Below are positions 2,397 to 64,000 of a stretch of 64,000 bases of DNA, piece by piece (the stretch's first letter is position 1; each line of letters opens with the position of its first letter). The notes below the pieces were generated by a model. That model did not search any database and was not told where the DNA came from. It worked only from the letters and a program-made list of their open reading frames with translations. The translations under genes were made by a program, and so were the position numbers. Source of the stretch: Arthrobacter sp. TMP15 (lineage in GTDB: Bacteria > Actinomycetota > Actinomycetes > Actinomycetales > Micrococcaceae); assembly GCF_039529835.1 (NCBI RefSeq), contig NZ_CP154262.1, positions 558,001 to 622,000 of the forward strand, read 5' to 3'.

Positions 2397-5231
2397 TTAG
2401 AGGCCAAGTTGGGCAAGGATCGGAAGCTGCTCACGCACCGATTCCCGGGCGGATGTGGCACTGACGGCTTGCAACGCCACGGCAGCTAGCCGCTGAGCTT
2501 CCGCCATTGTGAGCGTTGCAAGAACAGCGGCCACAGGCGCCAGGGAACGGGCACTCATGGACAAGGTTGAGACGCCCAATCCCACAAGTACGACGGCGAG
2601 AGCCGGGTCCGCGGCCGCCTCACCGCAGACTCCCACTGGCTTGGGTGCACCTGTGGAGACTTGCGCTTGGCAAGCGCCCTCGACCGTCAGCTTGATGAGC
2701 TTGAGCACGGCAGGCTGCCACGGGTCATTTAGCGTTGCCAGCGGGCCCAATTGCCGATCGGCCGCCATCGCGTACTGAGTTAGATCATTGGTACCCAACG
2801 AGGCGAAATCGGCTGAACTAAGAATGGCGGAAGCCGTCAAGGCTGCCGAGGGCACCTCCACCATGACGCCTGCCGTTTGCAGTCCGGCAGATTTGGCCAG
2901 TGTTGTGAATTGGGCAGCTTCCTCGGCGGTGGAAATCATCGGGGCCATGACCCACACCTCCGCTTCATGAGCGGCCGTGGCCGTGGCAATGGCGGTGAGT
3001 TGACGTTCCAGTACACCGGCGGAGGTGGCAACGGTACGGTACCCGCGCGCACCCAAGGCAGGGTTGGGCTCATCGGCCGGGGTCAGGAAAGGCAATGGCT
3101 TATCGGCACCGGCATCCAGTGTACGAATCACAACTTTTTTCCCCGGAAATGCTGCAAGCACAGCGCCATAGGCTGCCACCTGTTCCTGAATTGTGGGTTC
3201 TTTCTCGCGGTCCAAGAAGCAGAACTCGGTGCGCAGCAAACCAACACCTTCTGCTCCCGCTGCCGCTGCCTTGCGGGCATCGTCGCCGGTGCCAACATTG
3301 GCCAGCAGCGGGATATGCAGTGAGTCGGCCAGCGTGTTTGGGCCGGTAAAGGCGGGCATCTGTGCTGCCTGCGTAGCCCACGTGGCGGCCGCTGTGCGCA
3401 TGCTTTCATCAGGGTTGGTGGTGACGCTCCCGGCTGCCCCGTCAACGTAGACCTGCGTGCCATCGACAATGCCGTCCACGCCGGGGGCCGCAACAATGGC
3501 CGGCAAACCCAGCATGCGCGCCAGAATAGCTGTGTGTGATTGGGGGCCACCCTCTGCAGTGATCAAAGCCAGGACCTTTGTGGGGTCCAATGTGGCGGTG
3601 TCTGCCGGTGCCAAGTCAGTGGCTGCGAGAATATACGGGGCTGGCGAGACTGGAATACCCGGTGCCGGAAGGCCCTGCAGCTCGGCAACAATGCGTGAGC
3701 GCACGTCCAGAACATCGGTTGCGCGATCCGCCATATAGCCGCCCAAGGCCGTGAGTGTATCTGCCACCGTCTGACCGGCTTCCCAAATGGCCCGTGCCGG
3801 GGATCGCGGACCCCCGGGTGCATCCGGTGAGACTAGTTTGCCGGCCGCCTTGATCAGCATGGGATCGCCAGCCATCTGGGCGGTCGCGTGCAGGATGTCC
3901 TTGCTCTCTGCAGAGGCAGTTTCGGCACGGTTGCGCAGCTGCGTTTGGACCGTCTTGGCAGCGGACTTGATGGCGGCCTTGTTTGCCTCCAACGATGCCC
4001 CAGCGTCCTTGGGGGAGGTTACTGCTGGTTCGGCGACAGTTGCCGGCATTTGTAACACCTGTCCAAGCACTCGTCCAGCATTGACCCCCACTCCGTGGAA
4101 CACGGTGGCTGCGGTGTGGGTGTTGCGCGCTCGCCGCAGAGCAGAGTCAACATCCGCGAGTAAATCCTTCCAGCTGGCCACAAATTTTTTCAGGCCTTCA
4201 GCCTCTAGGAGTGCCGTGACGTCTTCGTAGGAGACACCGGCTTTGTCCAGCGCTGCCAAGGTGTCAGCGGCGGATTCATAGTTGCTTGTGATGGTGTCTG
4301 TGGTGAAAACGCCATGGTCAAAGGCGGCCAGCAATGTTGCCTCCGGCATGGTGTTGACCACTCCGGCGGTGACTAATTCACTGACGTACTTGGTATCGGA
4401 GTAGTCGGCGTTCTTGGAGCCAGTGGAGGCCCACAACAGGCGTTGCGGCACGGCGTTGAGCGCTGCCAGCGCCTTCCACCGCGGTGTTGAGAGGTTGTTG
4501 GCAAAAATCTGGTGAGCCAGCACGGCGTTGGCAACACCGGCGGCTCCTTTCAGATCCAAGGCATCTGGGGTACCGAGGGCATCCAGGCGGCCATCAATCT
4601 CAGCATCTACTCGCGATATGAAAAAAGAGGCAACGGAATGGATGGTGGAAAGGTCATGACCGTTCGTTGCCGCTAACTCCAAACCACTCTGGAAAGCATC
4701 AAGAACGGCGGCATACCGGGACAGGGAAAAAATGAGGGTGACGTTGACGCTGATCCCATCACCGAGAACGGTGGTGATTGCGGGGAGACCTTCATTAGTG
4801 GCCGGAATTTTGATCAGGACGTTGCTCTTGTTCACCGTGGCATGCAGGGTCCGTGCTTCTGCAATGGTGCTTTCGGTATCCCACGCCAGGCGGGGATCCA
4901 CTTCGATGGATACACGACCGTCGACGCCGTTGCTTGCTACCGCGATGGGGGACAGGAGGGTGCACGCCTCGGTGACATCCGCCGTCGTAATATCAAAAAC
5001 GGCTTGTTCAGCGCTGGCTCCCTGCGCGGCAAGATCGGCAATGGCGCTTTTGTAATCGCTGCTGGAGGTAATGGCGGCATGGAAAATGCTGGGATTAGTG
5101 GTCACGCCAACCACATTTTTCTCAGCTATGAGCGTTAGCAGGCTGCCGCTGGAGAGCCGTGACCGGGAGAGGTCATCGAGCCAAATGGATACTCCTGCCT
5201 CTGATAACTGGCCGGTTGGTGTGGAAGTCAT
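2397..5231 (-). CDS. transaldolase-PTS Enzyme I fusion protein
   Basis: A 944-residue protein joining two enzymes. Residues 1 to about 368 are a transaldolase: GVTTNPSIF near 42-50, the Schiff-base lysine in LIKIPAT (Lys141), and [13 protein letters not shown] near 267-279. Residues from about 372 to 944 are a whole Enzyme I (PEP-protein phosphotransferase). This part has the phosphohistidine segment GGPQSHTAI (His566), [11 protein letters not shown], the [17 protein letters not shown]-site motif, and the catalytic Cys869 in GVCGEAAAD. Both halves keep their key residues and no stop or frameshift separates them. AGGAG precedes the ATG. The gene lies between EIIC and HPr, with transketolase downstream. 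Inference: phosphotransfer and pentose-phosphate recycling are physically linked. Confidence 0.95.
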
Positions 5232-5366
5232 ACAATGCTCCTGGACGTTTCAAAAGGGTGAGCCTGCACGGAGCGTTGCGCTCCGGGCAGGCTCACGGGG
5301 GTGGTGATAAGTGGTGCCAGAGCCCACATTCTTTGAGGAGTCAGGGATCTGGCGCTTAGATGATTG

Positions 5367-6905
5367 TTAGGAACTTGCGTTGGCAGCGGCCTTTGCATCT
5401 TCCTTCTGGGCAGCGAGCTCCGCCTTAGCCTGAGCGGCAATGGCAGCCTCTGCAGCTTTTTCTTCAGCAATCCACGCATCGCGTTTTGCGCCGGGTACCC
5501 AGCCGCGGTTGACGACCTTGACCTGGAAAATGATGGCCGCTATGACAAGCACAACGGCGATCAGAACAGTCAAAACTGCTCCCAGGGCCGTACCGCCGCG
5601 CAAGCTGACACCGATCAGTGTGCCGAACCAGCCGAAGTCTGCATCGCCAAAGGTGCTGTTGGCAAAGCCAAAGTCACCCAGTACCAGCAGCAAGATCGCT
5701 GGCAGGATGGTGATGATGACTCCGTTGATGAACCCGCCGAAGATGGCGCCACGACGGCCACCTGTGGCATTGCCGTAGACACCGGCACCGCCGCCGGTGA
5801 AGAAGTGCGGCACCATGCCGGGCAGAATCAATGCCAGTCCGAAGGCCGGGTGCAGCCAGATAGCCAACAGGCCCAGGGCCAGGAGGCCGCCGGCAAAGGA
5901 GCTCAGGAAACCAATGAGCACTGCGTTGGAGCCAAACGGGAACACAATGGGGATATCCAGTGCAGGCTTTGCGCCGGGAACAACTTTTTCAGCGATGCCC
6001 TGGAAAGCGGGGACCAGTTCGCCCAAGACGGTGCGCACACCGTAGAGAATGATTGCCACGCCAACACCAAACTGCAGGGCCTGAGACAGGCCCGCCATGA
6101 TGAACGCGCCGCCATCAGCAGCACCGAAGATCGGCAACGCTTCATCCATGGGCAGGGCGATCAAGCCCCACACGGTAAAGACCATGTAGATCAGAACCAT
6201 GGACAGAGAGGTGGAAACCATGGAGTCTCGCAGGAACTTCAGGCTCTGCGGGAACTTGATATCTTCTGTTGACTTGCTTCGCTTGCCTGTAGCTTGACCG
6301 GCCGCACCAGCAGCCAAGTATCCCAGCGAGCCGAAGTGACCGATGGCGATTGAATCATTGCCGGTGATTTTCTTGGTCCATGGGTGGATGAATGCTGGCA
6401 TGACCACCATGATGACACCGAGCAAAATAGCTCCGATCAACACAACAAGCCAGCCAAGGTCAGCGCCGAGGCCTACTGAAAGGACAACTGTGAGCATGGT
6501 GGCCATGAAGACCATGTGGTGGCCGGTCAGGAACACGTACTTTAGTGGCGTGAAGCGGGCGAGCATCAGCATGACAACAAAACCAAGTGTCAGTACGTAC
6601 GCGCTCTGTGCGCCAAAGTCATCCTGGGCCATGGCCGTGATGACTTCGTTGGTGGGGATGACGCCCTGTGCACCGGTGACCTTGAGGATGAGCTGGCCCA
6701 AGGGGTCCAGTGAGCCAACCACAACATTTGCACCCGCACCGAGGATCAGGAAGCCGATGGCTGCCTTTAGCCCACCGCCAATGACCTGTCCGGCGTTTTT
6801 GCGAAGGGCCATCAGGCCCAAAGCAGTGATGATACCGATGAGATACGCGGGGACATTGAGGATTTGCTGCCCAATGAAATTGAGTACTACAACGAGCCAC
6901 TCCAT
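5367..6905 (-). CDS. PTS EIIC permease, ascorbate (UlaA/SgaT) family
   Basis: Membrane component that moves the sugar across the cytoplasmic membrane while EIIB phosphorylates it. The 512-residue protein has about ten to twelve hydrophobic segments. It carries UlaA-family signatures: LTGHHMVFMATML near residue 125, the ALDIPIVFPFGSNAVLIGF region near 305-325, and PHFFTGGGAGVYGNATGG near 360. The C-terminal 35-40 residues form a charged alanine/lysine-rich tail after the last membrane span, which looks cytoplasmic. EIIA and EIIB are separate genes just upstream, as in ulaABC. The family is typed on ascorbate, but members with other substrates exist. The adjoining transketolase and transaldolase suggest a substrate that yields a pentulose phosphate. 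The start has AAAGGA upstream. Confidence 0.92.
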   Translation of the reverse strand: MEWLVVVLNFIGQQILNVPAYLIGIITALGLMALRKNAGQVIGGGLKAAIGFLILGAGANVVVGSLDPLGQLILKVTGAQGVIPTNEVITAMAQDDFGAQSAYVLTLGFVVMLMLARFTPLKYVFLTGHHMVFMATMLTVVLSVGLGADLGWLVVLIGAILLGVIMVVMPAFIHPWTKKITGNDSIAIGHFGSLGYLAAGAAGQATGKRSKSTEDIKFPQSLKFLRDSMVSTSLSMVLIYMVFTVWGLIALPMDEALPIFGAADGGAFIMAGLSQALQFGVGVAIILYGVRTVLGELVPAFQGIAEKVVPGAKPALDIPIVFPFGSNAVLIGFLSSFAGGLLALGLLAIWLHPAFGLALILPGMVPHFFTGGGAGVYGNATGGRRGAIFGGFINGVIITILPAILLLVLGDFGFANSTFGDADFGWFGTLIGVSLRGGTALGAVLTVLIAVVLVIAAIIFQVKVVNRGWVPGAKRDAWIAEEKAAEAAIAAQAKAELAAQKEDAKAAANASS

Positions 6906-6938: not shown

Positions 6939-7211
6939 TTACTGGAGGGCTTCGGTGAGTTTGGTAGTGATCTCTTCGAGATCAAAGAAGTTATCAATGA
7001 TGATGACCTTGGCTGGCACATCCCCGAGCTCGCCAGCGAGCTCATCAGAAGTCAGCACGATCTCAGCCGTCTGGGCCGCGCCCTTGGCAACTCCAATATC
7101 TGCGGCTTCAACATCTGCGTCGATTCCCAGCTTGTCGAGTACTTTTTCTGCGTTCATTTTGAGCAGCACTGAGGTGCCAATGCCCATGCCGCACACTGCA
7201 ACTATTTTCAT
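6939..7211 (-). CDS. PTS EIIB, lactose/ascorbate type
   Basis: Cytoplasmic 90-residue phosphocarrier that takes phosphate from EIIA and gives it to the incoming sugar. The N-terminal P-loop VCGMGIGTS has the phosphorylated cysteine at residue 7, typical of the UlaB/GatB class. A Rossmann-like alternation of strands and helices follows. The start codon is preceded by GAAAGG, with the same spacing as the neighbouring EIIA start. It lies between EIIA (66-base gap) and EIIC (33-base gap), consistent with one transcript. Confidence 0.93.
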   Translation of the reverse strand: MKIVAVCGMGIGTSVLLKMNAEKVLDKLGIDADVEAADIGVAKGAAQTAEIVLTSDELAGELGDVPAKVIIIDNFFDLEEITTKLTEALQ

Positions 7212-7277
7212 GGTGGTGCCTTTCGTTGAATTTGCTTAAAATCGGGTGGGGAAGTTTAGCGAGAAAACGGTGAGGAT

Positions 7278-7736
7278 TCAGGCAGCGGAAGCTGCGTCAG
7301 TCAAAAGTGAGCGCAACTCATCTTCCGTGCTTGCAGCCACGAGCTGTTCCAGCTTGCCCTTCTGAGAGAGGATCCCCGCCAAAGCCTTCAGAACTTCCAT
7401 GTGAGTGGTGTGGTCAACAGCGGCCAAACCAATAACAAGGGAGACGGGATCATTCTTGGGGTGGCCGAACTCCACAGGCTCCTTAAGGCTGACCCAGCTA
7501 AGGCCACCTGTCAGGACAGCATCGGAGGGACGGCCATGGGCCAAAGCAATGCCAGGGGCAATGACGATGTACGGGCCGTGTTCCTCAACAGCGGCAATCA
7601 TCTGGTTGGTGTATTCCTTTGTTGCGGCCCCACCGGCAACGAGCCCTGCGCCAGAGAGGCGGATCGCATCGCGCCAATCCTTGGCGGTGGCTTTGGTGGT
7701 GATTGAACAGAGGGCCTGCGCCAAATCTATTGCCAT
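7278..7736 (-). CDS. PTS EIIA, mannitol/fructose/ascorbate type
   Basis: Cytoplasmic EIIA domain of 152 residues (PTS EIIA-2 type, like UlaC) that accepts phosphate from HPr. The active-site segment APGIALAHGRP places the phosphohistidine at residue 67, followed by SLKEPVEFGHPKNDPVSLVIGLAA, which is typical of the family. An upstream GTG at 7799 would add 21 residues, but the ATG at 7736 has a GAAAG site placed as for EIIB and gives the usual family N-terminus, so it was preferred. It is the first structural gene of the operon, downstream of the inverted repeat at 7826-7851. Confidence 0.9.
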   Translation of the reverse strand: MAIDLAQALCSITTKATAKDWRDAIRLSGAGLVAGGAATKEYTNQMIAAVEEHGPYIVIAPGIALAHGRPSDAVLTGGLSWVSLKEPVEFGHPKNDPVSLVIGLAAVDHTTHMEVLKALAGILSQKGKLEQLVAASTEDELRSLLTDAASAA

Positions 7737-7808
7737 GGTGATTCTTTCGTCAGTGAAAATTGAGAGCATCAACCCCGGAGGGCTTGTGCCGTGAATCACG
7801 CTACAGGC

Positions 7809-7851
7809 ATTAAATCCTTTTGTCTACAAATAGACCAAAGTAACTATTTGT
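7809..7851 (-). promoter_or_regulatory. promoter and operator of PTS operon
   Basis: A 7-base inverted repeat, acaaata at 7826-7832 and tatttgt at 7845-7851, has a 12-base spacer. On the minus strand a possible -35 (TTGGTC, 7838-7833) lies inside the repeat, and an 18-base spacer separates it from a -10-like TTTAAT (7814-7809). The arrangement suits repression by the adjacent ROK regulator. Assignment is by inspection only. Confidence 0.5.
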
Positions 7852-7864
7852 GTGAATCGTTGTG

Positions 7865-7885
7865 GAGGTCTGAGGTCTGAGGTCT
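7865..7885. repeat. three tandem copies of gaggtct
   Basis: Perfect 7-base tandem repeat, three copies, in the gap between the ROK regulator and EIIA. No function is evident; it is one of several short tandem duplications in this window. Confidence 0.8.
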
Positions 7886-7919
7886 AGGGCGCCTACACTG
7901 CTGGTGTCTGCATCGGCGG

Positions 7920-7962
7920 GCGCGCTCTGGTGTAACCCCCGCCGCGTCACGGGGGAGCGCGC
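7920..7962 (-). terminator. possible terminator after ROK regulator
   Basis: GC-rich stem just downstream of the ROK gene on the minus strand. The arms are gcgcgct (7920-7926) plus ccccc (7936-7940), pairing with ggggg and agcgcgc (7951-7962), with a 9-base bulge on one side. No T run follows, so termination is uncertain. Confidence 0.35.
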
Positions 7963-7973
7963 TGTGAGTGAGG

Positions 7974-9137
7974 CTAGAGAGACTTGGTGTTGGTGCGGGT
8001 TAGTTTGCTGATCCTGTCGGATTCAAAGAGGGCGTCTTGTGCAATGAGGGACGCTCCGGTAACGCCTGCAATTGAGCCAAGTCGAGAAGGCTCAACCACC
8101 AGAGATTTCAGGGAGTAGTCTCTGGCTCCGGAAAAAATGGCTTGCCGGATGCTTGCTACGAAGGCTTCGCCTGCTTCGGCCAAGTTGCCACCAACAACCA
8201 CTGCCTGGGGGTTGAGTACACCGACTATGTTGGCGAGAGCTTCCCCGATGATGGTGCCGTTTTCCGCGAGAAGGCGCAACACTTCTGCGTTGCCGACCCG
8301 TGCAAGGTTGACAATATCTTTGCTTGTTCGCACCTTGTGGCCTTGTCGCAGGAGTTCTTTGCGGATGACGCCGCCGCTAGCCACATGTTCCAGCCGCTGG
8401 AGGCGGCCGCTTCCAGCGTGGGTGTAACTTAGATCGCCGGCTCCGCCGCGGGATCCCTGGTAGATAGCGCCGTTCAGCACGAACGCAGATCCAAGGCCGA
8501 TGCCGGCTTTGAGGACAATGACATCGGTGTATTCTCGCCAGCCGCGCCGCGCTTCGGCCAAGGCAAGTACATTGACGTCCCGGTCAACAGCAAAAACAGC
8601 GTGACCATAGCGTTGTGCAAAGAATTCCTTGACCAGTACGTTTTCCCATTGTGGATCAAGCTGGGGGCTGCCCAGCCGGCCGCTGCCAAAATCGACGGGG
8701 CCAGGAACCCCAACTCCAATGCCAACTACATCCTGATGGGTTTTTCCAAGCCGCTCCAACATGTGGTCGAATACTTGGCCGGCCCAATCAAATATCTCGG
8801 TGGGACCTTCGCTGGGACCAATGTCAGCCTCATCTTCAATGAGGACGGTGGAAACTAGGTCAGTGATAGCTAGCCGGGTGTGGGAGCCGCCAATGTCCAC
8901 GGCCAGGAGGAGACCTGCAGAAGGGTTGACGGCAAATTCTTCCGGTGGACGGCCACCCTGGGAGTCTGACTGGCCCACACTGATAATGATCTTTGCTTCA
9001 AGGAGTTCATCCAGGCGCCTGGCCAAGGTTATCCTCGACCAGCCAAGCTGATCAATGAGGTTGCGCCGTGAGGTTGCTTGACCGGAACGAATCAGGTTCA
9101 GGGCAACTCCGGAACCCGTGGAGAAGACATGTGCCAT
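7974..9137 (-). CDS. ROK-family transcriptional regulator (NagC/XylR type)
   Basis: Sugar-responsive DNA-binding protein of 387 residues. The N-terminus (residues 10-60) is a winged helix-turn-helix with GQATSRRNLIDQLGWSRITL. The ROK sugar-kinase-like domain begins at LLLAVDIGGSHTRLAI near residue 76, and GIGVGVPGPVDFG is the ROK glycine motif. A glycine-rich GIGLGSAFVLNG segment follows. The start ATG has AAGGGAG upstream. It lies on the same strand as, and upstream of, the PTS operon, so it is the probable local repressor. Its ligand is not evident from sequence. An imperfect inverted repeat upstream (9195-9215) may serve autoregulation. Confidence 0.9.
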   Translation of the reverse strand: MAHVFSTGSGVALNLIRSGQATSRRNLIDQLGWSRITLARRLDELLEAKIIISVGQSDSQGGRPPEEFAVNPSAGLLLAVDIGGSHTRLAITDLVSTVLIEDEADIGPSEGPTEIFDWAGQVFDHMLERLGKTHQDVVGIGVGVPGPVDFGSGRLGSPQLDPQWENVLVKEFFAQRYGHAVFAVDRDVNVLALAEARRGWREYTDVIVLKAGIGLGSAFVLNGAIYQGSRGGAGDLSYTHAGSGRLQRLEHVASGGVIRKELLRQGHKVRTSKDIVNLARVGNAEVLRLLAENGTIIGEALANIVGVLNPQAVVVGGNLAEAGEAFVASIRQAIFSGARDYSLKSLVVEPSRLGSIAGVTGASLIAQDALFESDRISKLTRTNTKSL

Positions 9138-63591: not shown

Positions 63592-64000
63592 GCCAGACGC
63601 AGCCATGTATCCACCACTGTGTCAGGGTTCAAGGACACCGAATCGATGCCTTCACTGACAAGCCACTGGGCAAAGTCGGCGTGGTCGCTGGGACCTTGCC
63701 CGCAAATTCCCACATATTTCCCTCTGGCTTTGCACGCCGCAATGGCCATGCTGAGAAGCTTCTTGACCGCCGGATTGCGCTCATCGAAGCTGCCCGCCAC
63801 AATGGCGGAATCCCTGTCCAGCCCAAGCGTCAGCTGGGTCATGTCATTGGAACCGATGGAGAAGCCGTCGAAGAGATCTAAGAACTCATCGGCCAAAAGT
63901 GCATTGGCTGGCAGTTCACACATCATGATCACTTCCAGGCCGTTCTCACCTCGGCGCAGTCCATTCTCGGCAAGCAGCTCGATCACACCGCGACCCTCCT
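63540..64000 (-). CDS. ppsA: phosphoenolpyruvate synthase, C-terminal part
   Basis: The last 152 or so codons of PEP synthase, which makes PEP from pyruvate, ATP and water in gluconeogenesis; the frame is open to base 64000, so the N-terminal part lies outside the window. The PEP-utilising C-terminal domain is clear: [45 protein letters not shown] as a block, the catalytic cysteine in [12 protein letters not shown], and [14 protein letters not shown] near the end. After the conserved end LRLAG comes an extra Ala-Gly-Thr-Ala repeat tail encoded by a 12-base tandem repeat. A strong terminator follows. Confidence 0.95.

Follow-up and report, generated by a model that had tools for sequence, protein, structure and literature searches.

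A predicted transaldolase–Enzyme I fusion protein encoded within a putative Ula-type PTS operon of Arthrobacter sp. TMP15

A transaldolase joined in frame to a complete PTS Enzyme I is encoded by a single minus-strand gene in the window (the whole analysed stretch of 64,000 nucleotides) and is, in our judgement, rather likely a two-activity protein that serves one catabolic operon. The gene (2397–5231, read from 5231 to 2397) runs from ATG to TAA over 944 codons, yielding a protein of 944 aa with zero internal stops, and frame 1 of the plus strand across the same interval contains many stops. Its coordinates and single frame had been reported in a first-pass annotation that did not give the strand, and both are confirmed here, as are the positions that it assigned to Lys141, His566, GTNDLTQY and Cys869 in the translation. 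The N-terminal transaldolase domain (TAL_FSA, residues 16–359, 4155–5186; 256 bits vs. a curated Pfam cut-off of 27) carries the Schiff-base Lys141 (4809–4811) within the motif LIKIPAT. A junction of 19 residues between both Pfam matches (residues 360–378, 4098–4154) leads to the N-terminal domain of Enzyme I (PEP-utilisers_N, residues 379–503, 3723–4097; 45.6 vs. 24.4 bits), followed by the mobile phosphohistidine domain (PEP-utilizers, residues 531–601, 3429–3641; 69.8 vs. 23.1 bits) with His566 (3534–3536) in GGPQSHTAI, and by the PEP-binding domain (PEP-utilizers_C, residues 631–906, 2514–3341; 258.2 vs. 22.8 bits) with GTNDLTQY at 813 and Cys869 (2625–2627) in GVCGE. Since these domains each span nearly the whole of their profiles, the earlier wording "complete Enzyme I" is correct. 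With respect to multiphosphoryl transfer proteins, neither an HPr nor an EIIA domain was found within the chain by Pfam at E 0.001.

The fusion recurs in a second genome of the same species (G038; 944 residues, 99% identity) and, on one contig, in another species of the genus (G002; 944 residues, 81% identity). As the same 944 codons are thus present in three assemblies from two species, the possibility that two genes had been joined by a missed stop, or by a missed frameshift as the first-pass annotation had raised, is rejected, and the chance of such an artefact is practically negligible. Between the fusions of TMP15 and G002, which are separated by a dS of about 1, the NG86 method gave dN/dS values of 0.127 for the transaldolase and 0.115, 0.094 and 0.087 for the Enzyme I domains, and YN00 gave 0.085, 0.158 and 0.098 for the three domains other than the short phosphohistidine domain. 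With dN/dS well below 1 in this comparison, all four domains appear to be under purifying selection.

The translation start of the fusion is preceded by AGGAG upstream of Met1. Around the junction, the GTG codons at 376–392 lack a clear Shine-Dalgarno site by eye. GTG 351 of TMP15 has a GAAGG far upstream, but this codon is GTA in G002. ATG 395 has weak, widely spaced Shine-Dalgarno candidates (GGGAG in G002), and a start at this position would truncate the Enzyme I domain. A separate Enzyme I made from an internal start is hence unlikely, and given that no clear ribosome-binding site is seen by eye at the junction, Enzyme I is probably produced solely as part of the fusion.

The fusion gene lies in a minus-strand row that presumably forms one operon, in the order ROK, EIIA, EIIB, UlaA-type EIIC, fusion, HPr, transketolase, DeoC and a second ROK (ROK2). 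The row is headed by the ROK-family regulator (7974–9137), followed by a PTS EIIA of the EIIA-2 family (7278–7799, with a true start possibly further in), EIIB (6939–7211) and an EIIC of the EIIC-GAT/UlaA type (5367–6905). Downstream of the fusion are HPr (2089–2364), with a GLHARPA motif containing His15, and the transketolase (1–1912), which extends past the left end of the window and comprises 694 aa in a further stretch of the same genome (L050). DeoC and ROK2 lie to the left of the window, at 5103–5810 and 3829–5022 of L050, respectively. EIIC passes the model NF006919 "PTS ascorbate transporter subunit IIC" (516.4 bits, cut-off 380); EIIB and EIIA score below the ascorbate IIB and IIA models NF007586 (42.4 bits vs. 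a cut-off of 138) and NF007694 (111.7 bits vs. a cut-off of 187). A second transaldolase (66%) and a second Enzyme I (62%) are encoded elsewhere in the genome, as are two further HPr-domain matches. The fusion operon therefore looks like a specialised set, and neither half of the fusion need be essential.

G002 shares the ROK-to-ROK2 block (78.8% DNA identity over 10,024 columns and 75.3% over 1,255), the flanks of which gave no in-place alignment between the two genomes. A 158-base stretch of 83% identity and the same orientation flanks the operon on one side in TMP15 (L050, 3053–3210) and on the other in G002 (L051, 15340–15497), a pattern that would fit a relocation of the operon. Past the operon end, at about 3225–3275 of L050, a sequence resembling the 3' half of a tRNA can be recognized by eye, which may be an old integration scar; ARAGORN called no tRNA in L050, L051 and L052.

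The transaldolase half is readily assigned to its family, with 365.6 bits for TIGR00876 (cut-off 233.75) and 487.7 bits for NF002881 (cut-off 367). Its nearest solved structure by sequence is 3R5E from C. glutamicum (E 4.8e-104; 51% identity over 361 alignment columns). In an hhalign comparison with TalB, in which TalB D17 fell outside the aligned part, N35, E96, K132, N154, T156, S176 and R181, which we take to be active-site residues, were all kept as N46, E110, K141, N163, T165, S202 and R207. Yet, of 193 columns that do not vary among 32 standalone transaldolases, the three fused ones depart from 16, 18 and 20, vs. five departures at most for a left-out standalone enzyme; the set compared leans towards close relatives, having been drawn largely from the best matches. 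Together, the three fusions affect 26 invariant columns, none of which is among the seven TalB-aligned catalytic positions. The same new residue is shared by all three at nine columns (87, 93, 265, 272, 278, 284, 288, 298 and 339), and in a tree the fused enzymes branch off on a long stem, outside the whole set of 32 standalone enzymes. The transaldolase half thus appears to be unusually far diverged with its checked catalytic residues kept, and the number of departures suggests that its substrate may have changed or that selection has eased. At its strongest, this divergence could mean that the lysine chemistry was retained in an aldolase whose substrate is now the sugar phosphate of the operon itself, and no longer sedoheptulose-7-phosphate. 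The long stem, the nine shared replacements and the other transaldolase kept elsewhere in the cell would agree with such a change, but the preserved catalytic positions and the score far above the TIGR00876 equivalog cut-off speak against it, and we regard it as very improbable. Rather, we read the transaldolase half as a working enzyme with altered surface or specificity, relaxed selection being another reading.

The Enzyme I half, unlike the transaldolase half, appears to show an ordinary number of departures. All 109 columns that are constant across 68 standalone rows are kept, and in a comparison with 54 close relatives the fused Enzymes I depart from 2–5 of 204 invariant columns, with up to 7 departures for standalone enzymes. 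The half narrowly passes TIGR01417 (345.1 bits vs. a cut-off of 341.7), and the other Enzyme I of the genome falls just under this cut-off (330.8 bits). The nearest solved Enzyme I structures by sequence are 2HRO (4.4e-78), 2WQD (7e-70) and 2HWG (3.3e-69). Two further sequences with matches to Enzyme I or one of its domains were noticed. A third PEP-utilizers_C match at the right end of the window (G000:C1:621597-622508, from window position 63597) belongs to a frame of 824 residues, which is longer than Enzyme I and possibly encodes a PEP synthase or dikinase. In G002, an additional Enzyme I-like stretch (L080, about 7089–8157) gives matches only in pieces and looks broken.

An AlphaFold model of the fusion (pLDDT 72, pTM 0.55; alignment of 17 rows, 3 of which cover the transaldolase) is usable for Enzyme I, but its pLDDT falls under 50 in much of the transaldolase half, and residues 266–373 are unreliable. 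Despite the poor transaldolase half, Foldseek matched the model to both 2WQD and 3R5E. No interface between the halves is supported by this model, which is poor over much of the transaldolase half. These results bear on a regulatory link, in which the rate of the transaldolase depends on whether Enzyme I is phosphorylated or has PEP bound, or sugar phosphates bound to the transaldolase gate Enzyme I. Enzyme I undergoes large domain movements, and the drift of the transaldolase is greatest in its C-terminal part near the junction (16 of the 26 affected columns at residues 228–339), a region that may have been remodelled to allow contact. Such coupling is opposed by the lack of a modelled interface, albeit with 266–373 unreliable, and by the absence of unusual departures in Enzyme I, and it is considered unlikely. 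The same low probability is given to a flux-matching variant, in which transaldolase substrates would gate the PEP-to-HPr step (or the reverse), so that pentose-phosphate flux would set uptake without a transcription factor.

Clues to the origin of the fusion come from related loci. A genome from another genus of the family (G188) contains the row ROK-EIIA-EIIB-EIIC-EI-HPr-TKT, in which Enzyme I is a gene of its own, and its 18-kb stretch revealed no marker for transaldolase. A tree of 71 Enzyme I sequences places this enzyme as sister to the fused one (support 97/99), although it forms a long branch whose place is flagged as unsure by the tree program. Since G188 shares the operon start and has a separate Enzyme I grouping with the fused one but no transaldolase, the Enzyme I was probably already in the operon before the transaldolase joined. 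The transaldolase gene then probably landed directly in front of the operon's Enzyme I gene, which would have placed it at the N-terminus of Enzyme I in the resulting fusion. Beside sister Enzymes I of 70–72% identity (L053–L062), a transaldolase marker was absent in all ten stretches.

Among 80 loci with a related EIIC, some of which are cut by contig ends, transketolase is present in 51, Enzyme I in 16, DeoC in 10 and transaldolase in two, one being the fusion itself; EIIC is 62–86% identical in 79 of them, the remaining locus (L081) being from the same species. Transaldolase is hence not a regular partner of the Ula-type PTS, which counts against the reading as a two-activity protein, as do the divergence of the transaldolase half and the further copies of both enzymes in the genome. 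In the second transaldolase locus, from Pseudarthrobacter albicanus (L102), the row is EIIA-EIIB-EIIC-HPr-transaldolase-phosphofructokinase, and the transaldolase is a separate gene. In a tree, it groups with ordinary transaldolases of the family, apart from the fused ones, which suggests that transaldolase was recruited to the Ula-type PTS twice. Beside more distant EIICs of the family (L215–L223), TAL, TKT, EI and HPr markers were absent in nine of nine cases.

Several other features of these loci were observed. A strong G+C-rich hairpin occupies the gap between EIIC and the fusion in TMP15 (5258–5296, minus strand) and likewise in G002 (L051, before TAL). Comparable hairpins precede Enzyme I in G188 (L063), followed there by a T run, and lie between HPr and TAL in L102; they possibly serve as attenuators or mRNA stabilisers. 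The transketolase-DeoC-ROK2 block recurs beside EIIC in Rothia halotolerans and a Microbacterium (L122 and L125), which hints at deoxyribose or nucleoside-derived sugars. In ten Bifidobacterium loci (L138, L142, L144, L145, L148, L150, L151, L152, L159 and L160), an Enzyme I gene immediately adjoins a set of related Ula-type EIIABC genes, and HPr is encoded on the opposite strand.

A one-piece, full-length fusion was detected in 3 of 23 genomes of the genus, in two species, and in 3 of 395 genomes of the family. Beyond the own genome, none was found within the score limits among the 396 order, 296 class and 396 phylum genomes sampled. These taxon samples overlap, and about two candidates per genome were scored in the family, order, class and phylum searches (E limits 1e-190, 1e-160, 1e-165 and 1e-140, respectively); the family search covers matches above about 700 bits. 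Fusions in which both parts have diverged strongly could have escaped these searches. On plasmids, none of the 356 matching records contains 80% of the query at a single site. The fusion thus appears to be real but rare, with a narrow spread, and a widespread family was not found within the score limits of the searches. This narrow spread and the separate transaldolase in the Pseudarthrobacter gene row would suit a historical accident kept by drift, with two working enzymes joined by a covalent link that serves no purpose. Such a neutral origin has to be taken seriously, but it is the less probable case; the 944-residue architecture has survived a dS of about 1 with no change in length between TMP15 and G002.

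The favoured reading, a two-activity protein, can be placed in a putative cycle. The Enzyme I half would transfer phosphate from PEP onto His566 and further via HPr, EIIA and EIIB to the sugar within EIIC. Once imported, the sugar phosphate would be fed into the non-oxidative pentose phosphate pathway. There, the transketolase of the operon, together with the transaldolase half, could generate fructose-6-phosphate and glyceraldehyde-3-phosphate, which in turn would feed glycolysis and thus supply PEP for Enzyme I. The best evidence for this route is the suggested second transaldolase recruitment, together with transketolase and phosphofructokinase. A pentose, pentulose, pentitol or deoxyribose would fit as the imported sugar. 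Both active sites probably work independently, and the gain from the fusion may lie in equal amounts of both enzymes and in one unit of inheritance. The first-pass annotation had offered two ideas in this respect. A link between PEP-driven uptake and the recycling of pentose and heptulose phosphates is supported by gene context (EIIA, EIIB, EIIC, HPr, transketolase and DeoC, with transketolase in 51 of 80 loci), whereas a role in holding the transaldolase at the membrane PTS complex finds no support here, Enzyme I being a soluble protein.

Taken together, the protein would represent an apparently new domain architecture of two well-known enzymes with a clear operon logic. Neither the titles and abstract starts of the open-licence texts listed nor passages of PMC6643234, PMC2405797 and PMC555942 yielded a transaldolase–Enzyme I fusion, and the earlier remark that no biochemical description was known agrees with this literature, as judged by titles and abstract starts. 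Enzyme I is known in fusions to phosphotransfer or sensor domains and is joined here to an enzyme of central metabolism. As an operon resembling the pre-fusion state survives in a relative, the effect of the fusion is directly testable. The loci point, moreover, to a class of Ula-type PTS tied to transketolase across the Actinomycetota, for which a described sugar was not found. Were the two halves to act on one another, a single molecule would tie the uptake of sugar to pentose-phosphate flux.

Compared with actinobacterial transaldolases (TIGR00876/NF002881; 3R5E), the fusion contains the whole enzyme with the checked catalytic positions kept, but adds a whole Enzyme I at the C-terminus and has diverged from the standalone enzymes of the family. 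Its Enzyme I shares three domains, the His and Cys motifs and an ordinary number of departures with PTS Enzymes I (TIGR01417; 2HWG, 2WQD and 2HRO), but starts inside a longer chain with the transaldolase N-terminal to it. The Ula-type EIIABC loci with transketolase (some with ROK and DeoC) in other Actinomycetota comprise the same transport genes, but no transaldolase was found in 78 of 80 and Enzyme I is present in 16 of 80. Transaldolase is already known in fusions, namely, by NCBIfam name, with phosphoglucose isomerase (NF007080). There too, the transaldolase-like part is N-terminal in a long bifunctional protein, but the present fusion matches only that part (4–364), with 390.1 bits vs. 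a cut-off of 712. In E. coli, where the first-pass annotation had placed ptsA beside a gene for a transaldolase-like aldolase, fsaB and ptsA of K-12 indeed lie 11 bases apart on the same strand, and according to a passage of PMC6643234, ptsA, fsaB and gldA form one operon. An Enzyme I-type gene thus adjoins a transaldolase-family aldolase gene in this case as well, but the proteins are separate, ptsA comes before fsaB, and the product of the latter is a fructose-6-phosphate aldolase rather than a transaldolase. Multiphosphoryl transfer proteins and EI-Ntr (PtsA, FruB and PtsP) likewise contain Enzyme I in a natural fusion. The fusion partners named in passages of PMC2405797 are HPr, EIIA and GAF, and the word transaldolase is absent from its main text. 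As EI-Ntr is described there with a GAF domain N-terminal to Enzyme I, both proteins carry an added domain at the N-terminus of Enzyme I, i.e. GAF in EI-Ntr and transaldolase in the fusion.
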